Virus record (IMG/VR): IMGVR_UViG_3300025771_000121 | Span: 1-30,497 of that record | Direction: 5' to 3' (one strand) | DNA from: a virus | DNA length: 30,497 nt | In this document: positions 1 through 30,022 of the stretch, in pieces | Layout of the letters: each line of letters starts with the position of its first letter | How positions within the stretch are numbered: the first letter of the stretch is position 1 | Translations under genes and position numbers: made by a program | The notes under the pieces: model-generated | The model's input: only the letters and a program-made list of their open reading frames with translations | Told to the model about the DNA's origin: nothing | Databases searched by the model: none

Positions 1-273
1 ATGTGTATACCCTAACTTTTTCGCTAAAGTAATTCTTTGATTTCCTTTTAAAACTGTATACCTCTTTTCTATATAGGGGATTCCTAGAGCACCCATTCTA
101 GGTGTTTTTGAAATATGTCTTTGTTCTACTTCTATAGCATTTATCATATTAAATTTTTTTGATAAATCTTGTAAGTAAACTTCGTTTTCTTCGTAGTATT
201 TAATATAACTTATATCACTTATCTTTAATATCTTCTTTTTCGGGTGTGATGTTTTTGCTTTTAGTATTTTCAT
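1..273 (-). CDS. ParB/sulfiredoxin-like domain protein, partial (3' end outside window)
   Basis: This is an open frame running off the left edge, 91 codons visible. I chose the ATG at 273, which overlaps the end of gp16 by 59 nt in another frame. The only later in-frame ATG is at 147 and would remove much of the domain. The visible protein has a basic start, then an Ile/Tyr-rich stretch (residues 17-36) and a GNQRITLAKKLGY motif at residues 77-89. That motif resembles the G-N/x-R-xx-A-xx-LG signature of ParB-type nuclease and sulfiredoxin-fold domains, where the Arg contacts a nucleotide. In T4 the terminase large subunit gp17 directly follows gp16, so this gene is inserted between them or displaces gp17. 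Function is unknown; a nucleotide- or DNA-binding role linked to packaging is only an inference. The upstream Shine-Dalgarno is weak, suggesting translational coupling to gp16. Confidence 0.65.
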   Translation of the reverse strand, partial: MKILKAKTSHPKKKILKISDISYIKYYEENEVYLQDLSKKFNMINAIEVEQRHISKTPRMGALGIPYIEKRYTVLKGNQRITLAKKLGYTH

Positions 274-688: not shown

Positions 689-696
689 TATTTATT
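689..696 (-). promoter_or_regulatory. Possible late promoter box AATAAATA before gp16
   Basis: Read on the minus strand, the octamer is AATAAATA, one base off the T4 late consensus TATAAATA. It ends 6 nt before the gp16 ATG, so any transcript would be almost leaderless. The same octamer also occurs inside coding sequence in this window, so this is the weakest of the boxes. Confidence 0.3.
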
Positions 697-1357
697 ATAT
701 GTTTTTTTTAAAATAATTAGGTAAGCCTAAATGTTCTCTTGTATCAAACATATTTTCCTCAGCTCCTGGAGTTTTTTTATTATTATAATGTAAAAAAACT
801 TGAGCACAATCATTTCCTTCAAATTTTTCTCTCCAATGTTCTAAAATATTTCCTTTATAAACTAACATATCTCCTGGATCCATATCTACAGATAATCCTT
901 TATTGTCTGTAGTTCCAGGATATCCTTCGCTAGGTGTTCCTATATTTTTATATGGTTCTATAAAAATAGGCCATTTATCTCCACCTAAAAACATTGTGGT
1001 TGATATTTCACAGCTAAATCTATCTTTATGTCTTTCTAATACATCACCTTTTTTGTAGATACGAGCATATGAATATGTTGGAGTTAATTCTAATCCTGTT
1101 GTTTTTTCCATAATATTATGACACAACAACAATAATGTTTCCATAGCAATATCAGCATAATGAGAGTAGGTATTAGGTGCTTGAGGGTCGCTATAATAAC
1201 CCCAATCATTATTAAATTTTGATATATAGTTGTATTTAGAAAATATACTATGTACCTGTCTTTTCATTAAAAAATAATTATAAACAAACTCTGCAACTTT
1301 AGGTTCTATTGCTTTTCTAATTATTGTTATATTGTCTTTTTGAAAATCAAATTCCAT
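695..1357 (-). CDS. 2-oxoglutarate/Fe(II)-dependent oxygenase
   Basis: A putative cytosolic non-haem iron dioxygenase of 220 aa. The double-stranded beta-helix signature is visible: HxD at H110/D112 (RHKDRF), the distal His at H174 in ILEHWREKF, and a preceding MDPGDMLVYKGN strand typical of the fold. The 2OG-binding Arg/Lys that usually follows the distal His by about ten residues is not obvious. The substrate is unknown; such enzymes hydroxylate proteins, nucleotides or small molecules. It is the last of three consecutive oxygenase genes, starting one base after the stop of its neighbour. The GGAGATAG Shine-Dalgarno lies within that neighbour's last codons, so translational coupling is likely. 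Confidence 0.75.
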   Translation of the reverse strand: MEFDFQKDNITIIRKAIEPKVAEFVYNYFLMKRQVHSIFSKYNYISKFNNDWGYYSDPQAPNTYSHYADIAMETLLLLCHNIMEKTTGLELTPTYSYARIYKKGDVLERHKDRFSCEISTTMFLGGDKWPIFIEPYKNIGTPSEGYPGTTDNKGLSVDMDPGDMLVYKGNILEHWREKFEGNDCAQVFLHYNNKKTPGAEENMFDTREHLGLPNYFKKNI

Positions 1358-1358
1358 A

Positions 1359-1997
1359 CTATCTCCAAGGTTGTCCTAAATTCCATAACACTAAAGAATA
1401 TCTTGTTCCTTTTACAACAGGAGATACTCTATGCCATACAAAACTAGGAAAAATTATTATCGACCCTCTAGGTCTTATTTGTGTACAGGTATTTATTGAA
1501 GCGTTTTTGTGTCTTTCCCAATCAACTTGATTTCTAAAATCAAATTGTAAATTACCACCTTCATATTCGGACGGATCATTTAACGAAATTGTTACGGATA
1601 ATTTTCTTATTTTACCATTTGTATTTGGATTATCAGGAGCATTATAGGGTTCTTCCCAACTATCACAATGCCAGCCATAGTATTGTCCTAAACCATATTT
1701 TGTAAATTGACAACTTTCTGAAAAATCCCATTGAAAATTCCAACCAGCTTTTTCATTAGCATCGTGTATGAAAGGGTGTATTGTATTATAAATCCACTGA
1801 TCGTTTAACCAAACAACTTCTGATTTTCTTTTTTCTTGTATATTGTTTATTTCTTTAGCAGTCAAATCTTTTCTTCCTTCACTGCTACCTGTTACAGCCA
1901 TTTGAGCTTGTTGCTGTTTTCCTGTGTTTATAACATCATCACAAAATTTTTGAGGTAATGCTGCTTCATAATAGTAATAATAATTTTTTAAATTCAT
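1359..1997 (-). CDS. 2-oxoglutarate/Fe(II)-dependent oxygenase, PKHD/prolyl-4-hydroxylase type
   Basis: At 212 aa this is the clearest member of the oxygenase trio. The iron triad is HxD at H110/D112 (YGWHCDSW) and H189 in FPSFVWHRVSPV. R199 in KGTRYSLVLWN is the expected 2OG carboxylate ligand. Between them lies the LSVTISLND...EGGNLQF block (133-152) typical of PiuC/P4H-like enzymes. A Tyr run (residues 6-10) starts the protein. The reaction is presumably hydroxylation of a protein or small-molecule substrate, with 2OG and O2 converted to succinate and CO2; the substrate is unknown. A GATAAATA late box ends 5 nt before the ATG and no correctly spaced Shine-Dalgarno lies between, so translation may begin leaderless or by read-through coupling. 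Confidence 0.85.
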   Translation of the reverse strand: MNLKNYYYYYEAALPQKFCDDVINTGKQQQAQMAVTGSSEGRKDLTAKEINNIQEKRKSEVVWLNDQWIYNTIHPFIHDANEKAGWNFQWDFSESCQFTKYGLGQYYGWHCDSWEEPYNAPDNPNTNGKIRKLSVTISLNDPSEYEGGNLQFDFRNQVDWERHKNASINTCTQIRPRGSIIIFPSFVWHRVSPVVKGTRYSLVLWNLGQPWR

Positions 1998-2002
1998 ATC
2001 GT

Positions 2003-2010
2003 TATTTATC
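2003..2010 (-). promoter_or_regulatory. Late promoter-like box GATAAATA before the 212-aa oxygenase
   Basis: GATAAATA on the minus strand is one base off the T4 late consensus. It touches the stop codon of the upstream gene and ends 5 nt before the next ATG. If used, transcription would start at or next to the start codon. Confidence 0.4.
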
Positions 2011-2597
2011 TATCTCCTATCTCCTCTATAATCATAATGACACATATGTAACCATCCTGTTATAATATATTTTTCCTGTGTTGGTGAAACTATACCTCTG
2101 TGTGTGTGAGTAAAATCTGTAGGCCAGATAACAGTTAATCCCTTTTTAGGTTGTATTTTTATATTTTGATATAACCATTCAGTTTCTCCTTTATCTGTAA
2201 CATCATTTAAATATGTCATAAAAACTAAAGCTCTATTATACATTATTGAACCACTGGATAATGCTGCGTTATCTCTTTCACAGTGCCATTTTTTATAACC
2301 ACCACCAGGAGCATAATGTTGTATTATAGTTGCATCTAAAGTATGATACAATCCATATAAATTATATTTGTCAATATATGATTGAGTACCTTTACTCAAT
2401 TCTTTAAAATATTTTTGTATTGCTGAATTGTTAGAAGAATTAAAAATTGCTACATCTGTCGAATCTTTTATACTTTTATCTACACCAAAATTAGAGGATC
2501 CTACGGATTTATATTCTTCGTGTTTTTTATGATAGTCTATAAGTTGATCGCAAAGACTCAGGTCTTCTAAAAAATATTGATATATAAAAGTTTCCAT
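2010..2597 (-). CDS. 2-oxoglutarate/Fe(II)-dependent oxygenase with HxE variant motif
   Basis: A 195-aa protein with a double-stranded beta-helix layout. IIQHYAPGGGYKKWHCERDN (91-110) contains the first metal-binding His, but the expected HxD reads H105-C-E107, so the carboxylate would be Glu. The distal region PTDFTHTHRGIVSP (159-172) offers H164 or H166, and K176 or a nearby residue could bind 2OG. The RALVFMTYLND strand (122-132) is standard for the family. It could be an active variant, use D109, or have altered metal chemistry. First of the three-oxygenase run, it has its own TATAAATA box 13 nt before the ATG and no Shine-Dalgarno. Confidence 0.75.
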   Translation of the reverse strand: METFIYQYFLEDLSLCDQLIDYHKKHEEYKSVGSSNFGVDKSIKDSTDVAIFNSSNNSAIQKYFKELSKGTQSYIDKYNLYGLYHTLDATIIQHYAPGGGYKKWHCERDNAALSSGSIMYNRALVFMTYLNDVTDKGETEWLYQNIKIQPKKGLTVIWPTDFTHTHRGIVSPTQEKYIITGWLHMCHYDYRGDRR

Positions 2598-3417: not shown

Positions 3418-4208
3418 TAATTAAAATCTCCTGGTTCACCAAAAGGATTACTTTCAGAAAAGTCTAAAATATCATCTAAAGTGGTTTCAGTATTAAATCC
3501 TGCTTCACTCTCAAAATCATCATTATCAGCATATGCAGATTGTGTTCCTATGTCGTAACTTTCTAATATTAGATAATTAGATTGACCATCTGCTCTATCG
3601 TGTTCTAACAATAAAGAACCATCTTCATTTTCTAAATCAATTTGGAATGCTGTTTGATTTAGTGAGTAAGTATCTTCTGCTGCGTCTATAACTCCAACAC
3701 CTGTGTCTAATTCTTCACTACTGTATTCCCATCTAGTTACTTTTAATTTATATACAGGTAAATTTCCTAATTGAAAAAATGGTTGTTGATCTTCTACAAA
3801 TAATATTTCAAAAAAACTATTCATCAAAGGAAGATATATAATATCACCTTCATTAGGTCTTCCTTCTTTTACAAGTGTTGCTTTTTGATCTACTAATAAT
3901 TCAAATCTTCTTTTAGAAATCATAAAAGTAGTATCTTCTCTAATTTCTAGTCCAAACTTATTAATTAATTCTTGTTGACCAGCAAAACCCTCCGCCGTTT
4001 CAAAGTATGCTTCTATTGGAAATGCATCACCAAATCTACTTGCAACATCTTCACCTAATATAATGTCTTTATTTACAATTGATCTTGGTAAGTAATATAC
4101 CATATGACCATATTGTCTTAAACCTTCTATGATTAAATCTTCGTGTAATCTTTGTTCGGCTGTGTTTCCTATGCCGTTACCGTTTTGAAAATAATGGTTA
4201 ACTGGCAT
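3417..4208 (-). CDS. 14: Neck protein (T4 gp14-like)
   Basis: This neck component joins gp13 to form the collar between the filled head and the tail. At 263 aa it is close to T4 gp14 (256 aa). The conserved start is VNHYFQNGNGIGNTAEQRLHE (3-23), followed by YGHMVYYLPRSIVNKD and LGEDVASRFGDAFPIEAY. ISKRRFE (about 98-104) and IIYLPLMNSFFEILFV (about 123-138) follow. The C-terminal 50 residues are acidic and low in complexity, ending in SNPFGEPGDFN. It starts 4 nt after the gp13 stop with an AGGAT-like site within the gp13 end. Confidence 0.88.
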   Translation of the reverse strand: MPVNHYFQNGNGIGNTAEQRLHEDLIIEGLRQYGHMVYYLPRSIVNKDIILGEDVASRFGDAFPIEAYFETAEGFAGQQELINKFGLEIREDTTFMISKRRFELLVDQKATLVKEGRPNEGDIIYLPLMNSFFEILFVEDQQPFFQLGNLPVYKLKVTRWEYSSEELDTGVGVIDAAEDTYSLNQTAFQIDLENEDGSLLLEHDRADGQSNYLILESYDIGTQSAYADNDDFESEAGFNTETTLDDILDFSESNPFGEPGDFN

Positions 4209-5529: not shown

Positions 5530-8214
5530 TTAAAACTCAAATAAAGTTACTCCAGTTTGATTGCTACCATTTGCTAAAGTAAATGTTTGATTTTGAGTAA
5601 ATACTGTAGATGTTGTACCTGCTGAAAACTTAAATGATCTAGCGGCCGTAACTAATCCACCAGCATTTGTGAAAAATGGTACATTTCTAACAGCAGCACC
5701 TGTAGCCGCATCAGCGGATGCTATACTATCTTCTCCAACTTTTGATCCTGTTGGTAAAGTGGCACCTGTAGCCGAAATTAAAATTTGTCCTGTTCCATCA
5801 CCAGAGATAGTTGCACCACCAATATCTATCGTATTGCCTGATAAGTATAAATCTCTCCATCTTCTATTTGGTGAACCTAAATCATATGTAATATTATTTA
5901 ATGGTTCTAAATTTGAAATAAATCTACCATTAACAGTAATTGTATCTTCGGTAGAGTCACCTGAATTAACTCCTAAAGTAACATTACCTCTTAATGTAGA
6001 AGCGCCAGAAACATCTAAAGCTCCTGTTGCTGTAACATCAGCCGCTCTAATATTAGCATTTGTTATTGATAAATTACCTGTACTTGAACCAGTAAATGTA
6101 CCTGTTCCAAATACTACTTCATCTTCCGACTCATCATATCCTAAAAATACATTATTGTCGTCACCTCTTTCAATAATAATACCAGCGTCACCTGTAGCTG
6201 AACCTGTACGACCATTTCCTAATTCAAGCAATTGATCTGAAACTGTTGTATTAGTTGTTGAAACTGTTGTGGTTGTTCCATTTACAGTTAGATTTCCTGT
6301 TACTGTTAAATCATTACCTATTGTAACATCATTCGGTAATCCTATTGTAATCGTGTTGTCGGTAACAGCAGTTTCTATTTCATTTGCTGTACCAGAAATT
6401 GTTAGTGTATCTCCTGTATTAAATGTATCAGGTGTTCCACTATCAGCGTCAAGTGTAAATGATGTACTAATAGCAGCTGTACTTAAAGATGTAATTCTTC
6501 CTTGTTGATCTACAGTTATTTGAGGTACCGCTGTTGACGAACCATATGAACCTGGAGTTACTGCAGTGTCATCTAAATCAAAAGTAATAGTATCTTGGAC
6601 AATACTACTTGTTAAACCAGTTCCACCTTTAACTGTAAGTGTATCTGTTAAAAGAGATATTGTTGCATTAGTTGAACTATCATCTGCAACTGTTAAGTTT
6701 GTTGCAACTGAAGTTGTACTAGCAGCAGTTAATCTACCTTGAGCATCAACAGTAAATGTAGGTATTTCTGTTGCTGAACCATAACTTCCAGCAGAAACAG
6801 CTGTATCATCTAACGTAACCGTTATTGTATTTGTTGCACCTGATGTACTAATACCTGTTCCACCAGAAACTGTAAGTGACTCACTATCTAAATCTATTGA
6901 TAATGCTCCACCAGTGTCAGCTGAAAAATCTAAATCTTGTGCTGTAACTTGACTGTCAACATAAGTTTTAATTGCTTTTGCTGAAGCAAGAGTATTATCA
7001 CTAGCAGATACACTTGTTAAATCAGTATCTAAAACGCCAGAAGCAAAATCAGCAACTTCTAAATTTGTAATAGAGTTACCTGTACCATTTGCGTCAAATG
7101 TTTTATTTGTTAAAGTATCGGTACTGTCAGCAAGTATATAAGATTGTAAATCTGAAATATCTGCCTCAACAACTGTGATTGTGTTAGAAGCAGTATTAAT
7201 TGTTTTACCCGTTAGTGTATCAGTCGTATCTCTACCAACTAATGTATCAGTTGATGTAGGTAATGTTAACGTACCTGTATTTGAGATTGATGAAATAACA
7301 GGAGTTGTTAATGTTTTATTTGTTAAGGTTTGTGTAGAAGTTAATAATACTATATCACTTGTATTTGATAAATCTGTTGAAGCAATAGTTATATCAGCAC
7401 TACCATTAAATGATTGACCAGCGATTGTTCTTGCTGTTTCTAAAGTGGTTGCCGTATCAGCATTACCTGTTACATCACCTGTTACGTTACCAGTGACATT
7501 ACCTGTTACGTTACCTGTTAAATCACCTGTTACGTTACCAGTGACATTACCTGTTACGTTACCTGTTAAAGCACCTTCAAATGTTCCAGCAACAAATGTT
7601 TCTGAACCGACAGTCCACTTATCAGTTGTTTCGTTCCATATTAATGTTTTATTTGCATCATCACCACGTTCTATTTCAATACCACCATTTTCTGAAGCAG
7701 AACCTGTAGCGTTAGAATTTAAAAGAATTGTATTGTCAGCTAAATTAATGGTTTCTGTATTAATAGTTGTTGTTGTGCCACTTACTGTTAAGTTACCAGA
7801 AATTGTTACATTACCAGAACCATCTTGTGTTACAAAATTTGCGTCTGATAATGCTGAATTAAATTCAGCAGTTGTACCAGTTAAAGTACCTTCTGATAAA
7901 TCTAAAGTTAATGTGTTTGAAGCACTATCTATTGTTTTGTTTGTTAATATATCATTTGAATTTTCTGTAACGATAGAACCATCAACAGCAATTGTTAATG
8001 TATCACCGCTTAATGTTGCTGTAACACCACCACTACCTGCTATTTTTAATGTTTCACCTAAAGAAATAGTTGTTGATGTAGATGAAGTATCTACAAGTGT
8101 GAAACCTGAATTAGTTAAATACGAATTTCCAATAGTATCACCTGATTGATATTCAGCTATACCTGTAGGAGTACCGTCTGTAAATACTAGTCTTATTGGT
8201 GTTTTTTCTGCCAT
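5530..8214 (-). CDS. Long tail fibre protein with repeated modules
   Basis: An 894-aa, Thr/Ser/Gly-rich, low-aromatic beta-structured fibre. The N-terminal module (1-30) is shared with the 138-aa protein. A GNLTVSGTTTTI...IEIERGDD module occurs near residues 145-185 and again near 635-690. A VTGN/VTGD tetrapeptide array lies near 215-250, encoded by a perfect 48-bp tandem repeat. Three related SYGS...PTFTVDAQGRLTAAS-type modules fill the middle. Near the C-terminus, YDLGSPNRRWRDLYLSGNTI is a motif often seen before fibre tips, and the protein ends in GVTLFEF. It is presumably exposed and contacts the host surface. It starts 6 nt after its neighbour's stop without an obvious Shine-Dalgarno, so coupling is likely. 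Confidence 0.75.
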   Translation of the reverse strand: MAEKTPIRLVFTDGTPTGIAEYQSGDTIGNSYLTNSGFTLVDTSSTSTTISLGETLKIAGSGGVTATLSGDTLTIAVDGSIVTENSNDILTNKTIDSASNTLTLDLSEGTLTGTTAEFNSALSDANFVTQDGSGNVTISGNLTVSGTTTTINTETINLADNTILLNSNATGSASENGGIEIERGDDANKTLIWNETTDKWTVGSETFVAGTFEGALTGNVTGNVTGNVTGDLTGNVTGNVTGNVTGDVTGNADTATTLETARTIAGQSFNGSADITIASTDLSNTSDIVLLTSTQTLTNKTLTTPVISSISNTGTLTLPTSTDTLVGRDTTDTLTGKTINTASNTITVVEADISDLQSYILADSTDTLTNKTFDANGTGNSITNLEVADFASGVLDTDLTSVSASDNTLASAKAIKTYVDSQVTAQDLDFSADTGGALSIDLDSESLTVSGGTGISTSGATNTITVTLDDTAVSAGSYGSATEIPTFTVDAQGRLTAASTTSVATNLTVADDSSTNATISLLTDTLTVKGGTGLTSSIVQDTITFDLDDTAVTPGSYGSSTAVPQITVDQQGRITSLSTAAISTSFTLDADSGTPDTFNTGDTLTISGTANEIETAVTDNTITIGLPNDVTIGNDLTVTGNLTVNGTTTTVSTTNTTVSDQLLELGNGRTGSATGDAGIIIERGDDNNVFLGYDESEDEVVFGTGTFTGSSTGNLSITNANIRAADVTATGALDVSGASTLRGNVTLGVNSGDSTEDTITVNGRFISNLEPLNNITYDLGSPNRRWRDLYLSGNTIDIGGATISGDGTGQILISATGATLPTGSKVGEDSIASADAATGAAVRNVPFFTNAGGLVTAARSFKFSAGTTSTVFTQNQTFTLANGSNQTGVTLFEF
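7475..7570 (-). repeat. Perfect 2 x 48-bp tandem repeat inside the fibre gene
   Basis: Units 7475-7522 and 7523-7570 are identical base for base. Each is made of four related 12-bp units encoding VTGN/VTGD. The array is in frame, so copy changes would lengthen or shorten the fibre by 16 residues (or 4 for single 12-bp units) without disrupting it. Confidence 0.9.
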
Positions 8215-29830: not shown

Positions 29831-30022
29831 TTAAGCTCCATTAAAAGAATCGTAATCCATTGAATCGTATTTCACTTCAGCTGGATCGAATCCATCATTT
29901 TCTTTGTGCCGACAATGTGTACAGCACAATGTTTGTTGTTCTTCGCCATAATTTTGAAAACAATAACCATCACAATGACAGTCGTGTCCACAATTTTGAC
30001 AATATTTTTTTTCTTTAACCAT
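29831..30022 (-). CDS. Cys-rich putative metal-binding small protein
   Basis: A 63-aa protein with eight Cys: C8, C11, C15, C17, C21, C33, C34 and C37, plus His at 13, 16, 36 and 39 (YCQNCGHDCHCDGYC, then LCCTHCRHK). The CxxC pairs at 8/11 and 34/37 resemble a zinc ribbon; the other Cys/His could hold a second metal. The C-terminal 25 residues are acidic with Asp/Tyr repeats. The function is unknown; it may bind zinc and interact with nucleic acid or another protein. A GATAAATA box ends 9 nt before the ATG, with no Shine-Dalgarno. Confidence 0.68.
   Translation of the reverse strand: MVKEKKYCQNCGHDCHCDGYCFQNYGEEQQTLCCTHCRHKENDGFDPAEVKYDSMDYDSFNGA

Follow-up and report, generated by a model that had tools for sequence, protein, structure and literature searches.

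Known ParB-fold proteins

Proteins with the ParB fold have come to be described as general NTP-binding modules, and solo phage versions are already known. Kaljevic et al. (2025, PMC12704722) reported short phage proteins with the ParB-CTPase fold as likely genuine single-domain proteins, without a function being attached to them. In the ATP and CTP binders tested in that work the Box I helix is about 12 residues long, and the arginine of the GxxR motif is the residue mutated to obtain the non-binding control. The word 'terminase' is absent from the main text of PMC12704722, which gives no packaging context. A further group, the DdrB-like ParB domains, occurs in solo or fused form among late phage genes, beside those of the virion, and has been proposed to consist of NTP-regulated DNases (PMC5512222).

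As regards packaging, the ATPase and nuclease activities of T4 gp17 are under the control of gp16, whose C-terminal region appears to confer specificity; an ATP site without canonical motifs is also described for gp16, under the caveat of a lacking correlation for nucleotide binding (PMC9958956). Among the papers listed in searches of the open-licence literature on pelagiphages, cyanophages and T4-like phages, none was seen to describe a ParB-like gene beside the terminase, and the main text of the pelagimyophage survey PMC7029224 contains 0 occurrences of ParB.

The locus and its gene

The window, i.e. the whole stretch of DNA analysed here, is an entire virus record of 30,497 bases, classed as linear; such records are often fragments, and since the window comprises the whole record, the ParB-like gene at its start is truncated by the end of the contig. 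A sequence-only reading had described there a 91-codon minus-strand frame, running from position 273 to the window edge, sharing exactly 59 nt with gp16 (682-215) and containing the string GNQRITLAKKLGY, and these coordinates are all correct (Table 1). The IMG/VR contigs L001 and L002, which match the window at 6,273 of 6,273 positions, extend beyond the edge and show that the frame closes after 8 further codons, the protein being complete at 99 aa. Closure shortly past the edge had been named in the same reading as grounds for giving up the ParB assignment; it does occur, literally, and refutes nothing, because the domain is complete at that length. Beyond the ParB-like gene, both contigs carry a 204-aa 2OG-Fe(II)-oxygenase-like protein (PF13640 at 24 bits, under the cut-off of 27), gp17 (545 aa), gp18, gp19 and the start of gp20, gp18-gp20 being named from the gene order of phage Mosig. 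Extension leftward, as the reading had proposed, therefore did lead to gp17, behind an oxygenase gene.

Table 1. Coordinates in the window of the ParB-like gene, its motifs and gp16
Feature	Position	Strand	Basis or remark
ParB/Srx-fold single-domain gene, codons 1-91 of 99	1..273	-	Last 8 codons and stop outside the window, in L001/L002; AlphaFold, fold searches
gp16, terminase small subunit, 155 aa	215..682	-	PF11053 E 7e-8; phrog_445 E 2e-49
59-nt overlap of the ParB-like frame and gp16	215..273	-	dN/dS 0.19 (ParB-like frame) vs 0.92 (gp16), from the 63 loci overlapping by exactly 59 nt
Conserved N-terminal segment MKILKAK, codons 1-7	253..273	-	Encoded within gp16; upstream of the part aligned with ParB structures
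Family signature R59-x-G-x2-G-x2-Y67-x-E69, between strands 2 and 3	67..99	-	Member alignment
P-motif GNQR (G77-R80)	34..45	-	Member alignment; motif role from PMC12704722

The family comprises 164 distinct closed members of 87-135 aa (median 97), which, together with a dN/dS of 0.32, rules out a chance open frame. The gp17 of L001 is 79% identical to that of Pelagibacter phage Mosig EXVC030M and 66.5% to that of HTVC008M, and by these identities the window very probably comes from a pelagimyophage-like member of the Kyanoviridae; the groupings 'relatives' and 'lineage' were likewise based on identities.

Some other features of the window were recorded. Three tandem genes lie between gp15 and gp16 (695-2597, minus strand), the second and third being 2OG-Fe(II) oxygenases by Pfam, while the frame at 695-1357 (minus strand) has no Pfam match and carries the doubtful label 'ferrochelatase' (phrog_2954), resembling its neighbours by eye. 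On the same strand, a 63-aa Cys-rich protein, zinc-ribbon-like by eye and without a Pfam match, is encoded at 29831-30022, and an 894-aa open frame with runs of GNVTGN-type repeats at 5530-8214.

Fold

Searches with sequences only are nearly blind to the ParB/Srx fold, which is faintly visible in their results. With 27 members, a Pfam search at E up to 10 and with filters on returned no ParB family, and the top PHROG matches were families of unknown function (phrog_8947, E 1.9e-4; phrog_3951, E 9.3e-4). Eleven of the 27 matched phrog_498, 'DNA methyltransferase' (best E 0.0013), and eight weakly matched the ParB-like phrog_4715 (best E 0.0035). A PDB profile search placed MrsD at the top (E 0.62), followed by Noc (E 0.91), neither being meaningful by itself; the weak Noc alignment covers strand 3, the helix and strand 4, and sets GERR opposite GSQR.

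Two AlphaFold2 models were built, one with 49 family sequences (model 1; pLDDT 93.5, pTM 0.80) and one headed by another branch of the family (model 2; L047, 31 sequences, pLDDT 94.6, pTM 0.81). The best 50 Foldseek rows, out of 122 for model 1 and 197 for model 2, were all ParB, Noc, KorB, PadC, SbnI, SerK, Srx or the structural-genomics entries 1vk1/2hwj. The best E-values were modest (1.5e-2 and 2.6e-3, respectively), with best-row probabilities of 0.99 and 1.00; for model 2 the best matches were Noc 7ol9_B and 7nfu_B, both at E 2.6e-3 and probability 1.00. VIA-align gave model 1 a Z of 8.0 to both SerK 5x0b (rmsd 3.1, 77 aligned) and ParB 7bnk_A (rmsd 2.5, 66 aligned), and model 2 a Z of 8.1 to Srx 6ky4 (rmsd 2.2, 69 aligned), 8.0 to SerK and 7.7 to Noc, MoeA rows reaching at most 2.5. 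Since the tool itself warns that a best Z of 7 to 8 is typical even of models with no clear match, the fold is assigned from the consistency of the rows together with the motif, and no weight is put on Z. Among the viral models of BFVD, the best match was A0A8S0HY47 (95 aa, 48% identity, E 1.3e-11), followed by M1IP63 and A0A8E5BER7 (3.2e-5) and by two giant-virus ParB proteins (2.0e-4 and 3.9e-4).

The ParB/Srx-like nucleotide-binding fold suggested by the earlier reading is thus backed by two AlphaFold models, Foldseek and VIA-align, and the prediction that the protein represents one complete ParB/sulfiredoxin domain of 99 aa is well supported by the models. Both of them show a single domain, after which the protein ends, with no HTH, and in both the only helix of 4 or more residues in the interval between strands 1 and 2 is 4 residues long.

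Conserved residues

Nine residues are invariant in all 164 distinct closed members (L4, R59, G61, Y67, E69, G77, R80, A84 and G88), while Y89 is retained in 159 and G64 of the signature in 152. The GxxR phosphate motif is present in every one of the 164, as GSQR (106), GNQR (43), GGQR (7), GSSR (7) or GSRR (1), so that position 78 is always S, N or G and position 79 is R in a single member; the Glu of GERR was found in none of the 164. Box III is missing because the protein stops. Given the invariance of GxxR, the protein probably binds NTP through this motif. Within the analysed data, the signature R59-x-G-x2-G-x2-Y67-x-E69 and the N-terminal K-x-L-K-A-K mark the family as judged from the member alignment, and limited literature searches returned no earlier mention of either.

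In sulfiredoxin the catalytic Cys sits in the GxxR loop. No member of the family (0/164) has a Cys at positions 76-80 and, therefore, Srx chemistry is ruled out. The catalytic Glu of SerK is E30 according to PDB titles, and a conserved Glu is absent from the tabulated positions 22-26 of the ParB-like family. Positions 51-53, which close strand 2, are occupied mostly by K/Q, H/Y/R and T/K/E.

Position between the terminase genes

The position of the gene was followed in ParB-seeded loci, of which 122 remained out of 142 after removal of the window itself (L077), 17 contig repeats, one locus with no member (L079) and one with a 26-aa fragment (L075), identical sequences from different assemblies being kept. 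These loci were picked for encoding the protein, so that they show where it lies and not how often it accompanies gp16. The gene immediately upstream is gp16 in 121 of the 122, overlapping by 59 nt in 90 of these 121, by 56 nt in 17 and by 38-83 nt in 14. On the downstream side, gp17 is the direct neighbour in 88 of the 122 and lies beyond one or two 2OG-like genes in 22, so that it follows in 110 altogether; the rest comprises 1 locus with a 2OG-like gene whose contig ends before gp17 is reached, 6 with other open frames and 5 in which the contig ends. A 2OG-like gene is thus the direct neighbour in 23 of 122. In none of the 122 was the ParB-like gene encountered away from the terminase genes.

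The ParB-like gene and gp17 share exactly 8 nt at 80 of 102 distinct junctions with gp17 next, a further 48 rows having no gp17 start within reach of the gene. The ParB-like gene is the central one of three overlapping genes, gp16 - X - gp17. An 8-nt start-stop overlap is also seen between it and the 2OG gene of L001, which indicates that such an overlap is not special to terminase genes.

Loci seeded with gp16 (the best 80 for each seed) correct the bias of the ParB seed, although they favour near relatives and include partly the same contigs. With the gp16 of the window, a ParB-like gene on the same strand was found in 79 of 80, the remaining contig ending inside gp16. With Mosig gp16, it lay at gp16 in 73 and behind an interposed 2OG-like gene in 2, was absent from 3, and 2 loci were too short, so that it is present in 75 of 78 evaluable loci. 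The place inside the packaging operon that the sequence-only reading had described is a fixed one by these counts.

Cargo genes come and go around the ParB-like gene, which stays. In L115 (879-2083), the gp16 frame is broken within 79 codons and followed by an endonuclease gene and then by the ParB-like gene; the intervening gene is homing-endonuclease-like, with NUMOD3 above and SegE GIY-YIG below the Pfam cut-off, and an Rfam scan of L115 gave no match. Other genes also precede gp17 in the group L049-L054: in L051, the ParB-like gene is followed by proteins of 107 and 203 aa without Pfam matches, then by a 2OG-like gene and gp17, and the frames of L050 are of similar size.

The expectation that gp17 should directly follow gp16, as in T4, did not hold in the other marine T4-like phages inspected. 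Among six hand-picked genomes, the stretch from P-TIM40 lacks gp16 and the five others show both genes, with other genes between them in five of five. In HTVC008M these encode a 2OG oxygenase and a tryptophan halogenase, in Melnitz an F5/8C protein, and P-SSM2, S-SM2 and S-H38 have genes without a name and tail-fibre or virion genes there. As the junction is occupied by other genes in these five relatives, position alone proves little.

Selection and the gp16 overlap

Selection was estimated from 112 complete gp16/ParB-like/gp17 triples, 79 of which are non-identical and 78 of which also have a recognisable start. In these 78, dN/dS was 0.32 for the ParB-like gene, 0.15 for gp16 and 0.12 for gp17. 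Over the first 20 alignment columns of the ParB-like frame, which all lie in the overlap and owing to gaps amount to about 14 codons in most rows, dN/dS was 0.12 and pS 0.59 (0.57 in the rest of the frame), against 0.98 and 0.24 for the last 24 columns of gp16. A count over codons 1-19, restricted to the 63 loci (of 78) whose overlap is exactly 59 nt, gave 0.19 and 0.51 for the ParB-like frame and 0.92 and 0.24 for gp16.

Since dN/dS in the overlap is low for the ParB-like frame and near neutral for gp16, selection acts mainly on the former, and the gp16 tail looks like a largely passive overprint, a by-product of the overlap; gp16 as the constrained frame finds no support in its tail values, whether by columns or by codons. 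Little extra constraint is visible at the DNA level, and a DNA pac site in the overlap is unsupported in the sequence, with pS at 0.59 or 0.51 there and 0.57 elsewhere. HTVC008M-type gp16, in the sample inspected, ends near the point where the ParB-like gene would begin, which, together with a K-x-L-x-A-K start kept by the distant HTVC008M relatives away from gp16, fits a newer origin of the gp16 tail.

Pairwise identities of the ParB-like protein track those of gp17 (Mantel r 0.49) and gp16 (0.39), neither value being reached in any of 999 permutations, and gp16 and gp17 correlate with each other (0.63) above the level of either with the ParB-like protein.

Distribution and natural loss

In a tblastn search of 50,697 phage records, a clear orthologue was found only in Pelagibacter phage Mosig EXVC030M (48% identity), whereas in IMG/VR at least 462 stretches encode relatives. 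The Mosig gene, Mosig_00048 (MT647606.1 35677-35964), is annotated as hypothetical, and its start has been placed 26 codons past the conserved one, so that the overlap with gp16 is concealed. A scan of genome contigs for cellular relatives, a weak search with one pattern and 598 candidate stretches, gave none.

With HTVC008M gp16 as seed (best 80, 3 of them too short), the ParB-like gene was present in 0 of 77 evaluable loci, in 54 of which gp17 is the first recognised gene downstream. HTVC008M itself encodes two distant relatives, I899_gp038 and I899_gp041 (NC_020484.1 26289-26552 and 27595-27948; profile E 6e-6 and 3e-3), both annotated as hypothetical and separated by two genes. The same stretch contains genes annotated as 'DNA endonuclease V', as 2OG oxygenase and as spermidine-synthase-like methyltransferase.

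Three Mosig-type loci (L331, L347 and L350) have lost the ParB-like gene and keep gp16 and gp17, the latter starting 27 nt past the gp16 stop. In these three and in the cut locus L328, about the first 20 ParB-like codons survive within the 3' end of gp16 (from about 3421 up to its stop codon at 3480), in a frame that stops after 28-29 codons. These relics are deletion remnants of the ParB-like gene and, the four contigs being alike, perhaps derive from one deletion event. With gp16 and gp17 retained after the loss, the gene is not essential everywhere.

The ParB-like gene is thus carried by a widespread ocean virus group, one member of which infects the SAR11 bacterium Pelagibacter. As far as our searches show, four things are new: the family, its signature, its escape from Pfam and its lock between the terminase genes. 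Mosig, an isolate on Pelagibacter HTCC1062, carries the gene, the related isolate HTVC008M lacks it at the terminase, and natural losses are at hand as well, so that the function of a solo ParB-fold protein in a phage is directly testable. As regards annotation, the misplaced Mosig start can be corrected and the gp16 C-terminal tail viewed as a likely by-product of overlap.

Possible roles

A role as packaging accessory, one of those proposed in the sequence-only reading, is possible. The explanation preferred here, to which we give a probability of roughly 0.4, is that the ParB-like protein is a nucleotide-dependent terminase accessory, a group-specific and dispensable aid and not a core subunit. 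Its single ParB/sulfiredoxin-fold domain would bind NTP via the invariant GxxR; encoded in the middle of the overlapping gp16 - X - gp17 unit, from which co-production is inferred, it would probably be made with the terminase subunits in the late phase; and in one nucleotide state it would contact gp16 or gp17, tuning packaging initiation or motor activity. With T4 gp16 regulating gp17 and having an ATP site (PMC9958956), a nucleotide-responsive regulator at the packaging step is plausible. Constant position, regular overlaps, purifying selection and identities tracking gp17 and gp16 were counted for this explanation, and the absence from all 77 HTVC008M-type loci, the three losses, the faster evolution and a looser tracking than that between gp16 and gp17 against it. 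In a bolder form, the protein would be a third nucleotide-switched part of the T4-type packaging machine in widespread marine phages, sensing NTP (perhaps the CTP or dNTP pool) and gating initiation; this we consider unlikely.

The evidence separates the terminase accessory only weakly from a late-gene moron, an alternative which we also regard as a real possibility, somewhat short of an even chance. The protein would then be an NTPase or nuclease of the DdrB/Osa type of ParB fold, carried in the virion or made late, whose targets are NTP pools or the DNA of the host or of rivals, and its position would reflect an old insertion inherited vertically. The occurrence of DdrB-like ParB domains among late phage genes (PMC5512222) fits such an origin, as do the other genes at the gp16-gp17 junction of related phages, the dispensability of the gene, which is missing from HTVC008M-type loci and lost elsewhere leaving a relic, and the setting of the two distant HTVC008M relatives away from the terminase. 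Against it stand the 122 ParB-seeded loci, none of which has the gene away from the terminase, and the gp16-seeded loci (best 80 each), where it is retained in 79 of 79 evaluable ones with the gp16 of the window and in 75 of 78 with that of Mosig while neighbouring cargo varies; two DdrB features, the D/N of strand 2 and the extra helix, were not seen.

A small enzyme of the SerK/SbnI/Srx type, transferring phosphate to a metabolite, a protein or a modified base, perhaps together with the adjacent 2OG-Fe(II) oxygenases, seems improbable. In its favour, the best structural matches include SerK, SbnI and Srx, the invariant R59, Y67, E69 and R80 could form an active site, and 23 of 122 loci have a 2OG-like gene directly downstream; nevertheless, gp17 follows without one in 88, 2OG genes are scattered over many places in HTVC008M, no Cys occurs at GxxR (0/164), and a single domain contrasts with the 239-254-residue chains of SerK and SbnI. 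Still less probable is an adaptor that has kept the fold and lost nucleotide binding: a 4-residue helix between strands 1 and 2, compared with about 12 residues for Box I (PMC12704722), would agree with it, but the constancy of G77 and R80 in all 164 members would be hard to explain for a scaffold.

A 'DNA-site factor', also suggested in the earlier reading, is unlikely for a single domain without HTH whose overlap has synonymous sites nearly as free as the rest, and a true ParB-like DNA clamp, acting in partition or at a pac site, is the least probable reading despite the fold and the GxxR motif, since neither an HTH nor a C-terminal dimer domain nor Box III can be accommodated in 99 aa, GERR is replaced by GSQR, GNQR, GGQR or GSSR in 163 of 164 members, ParA is named in 0 of 14 annotated features around the Mosig gene (by annotation only), and the overlap shows little of the added synonymous constraint that would mark a DNA site.

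Comparison with known systems

The SerK and SbnI chains (239-254 residues) include a second domain, whereas the ParB-like protein has 99 aa and one domain. Canonical ParB CTPases combine the fold with HTH and C-terminal dimerisation domains, neither of which the 99-aa protein has. The CTPase domains of Noc, ParB and KorB are the best Foldseek matches of the ParB-like models; compared with them, GERR is changed mostly to GSQR or GNQR and the Box I helix is reduced, with no Box III, HTH or C-terminal domain. With the DdrB-like domains (phage P1; PMC5512222) the ParB/Srx fold, a pocket Arg, a late-gene setting and solo forms are shared, whereas the D/N ending strand 2 and the extra helix with a conserved Tyr before the last strand, described for those domains, are absent from both models, although Y89 is kept in 159 of 164 members.

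The short phage proteins of PMC12704722 are similar in being about 100 aa long, phage-encoded and composed of the fold alone, with a GxxR P-motif; that survey used PF02195 and related models, whereas the 27 members searched here match no Pfam ParB family. I899_gp038 and I899_gp041 of HTVC008M share with the family the N-terminal K-x-L-x-A-K stretch, but lie away from the terminase genes. Mosig_00048 is an orthologue, 48% identical to the gene of the window and, like it, placed between gp16 and gp17.
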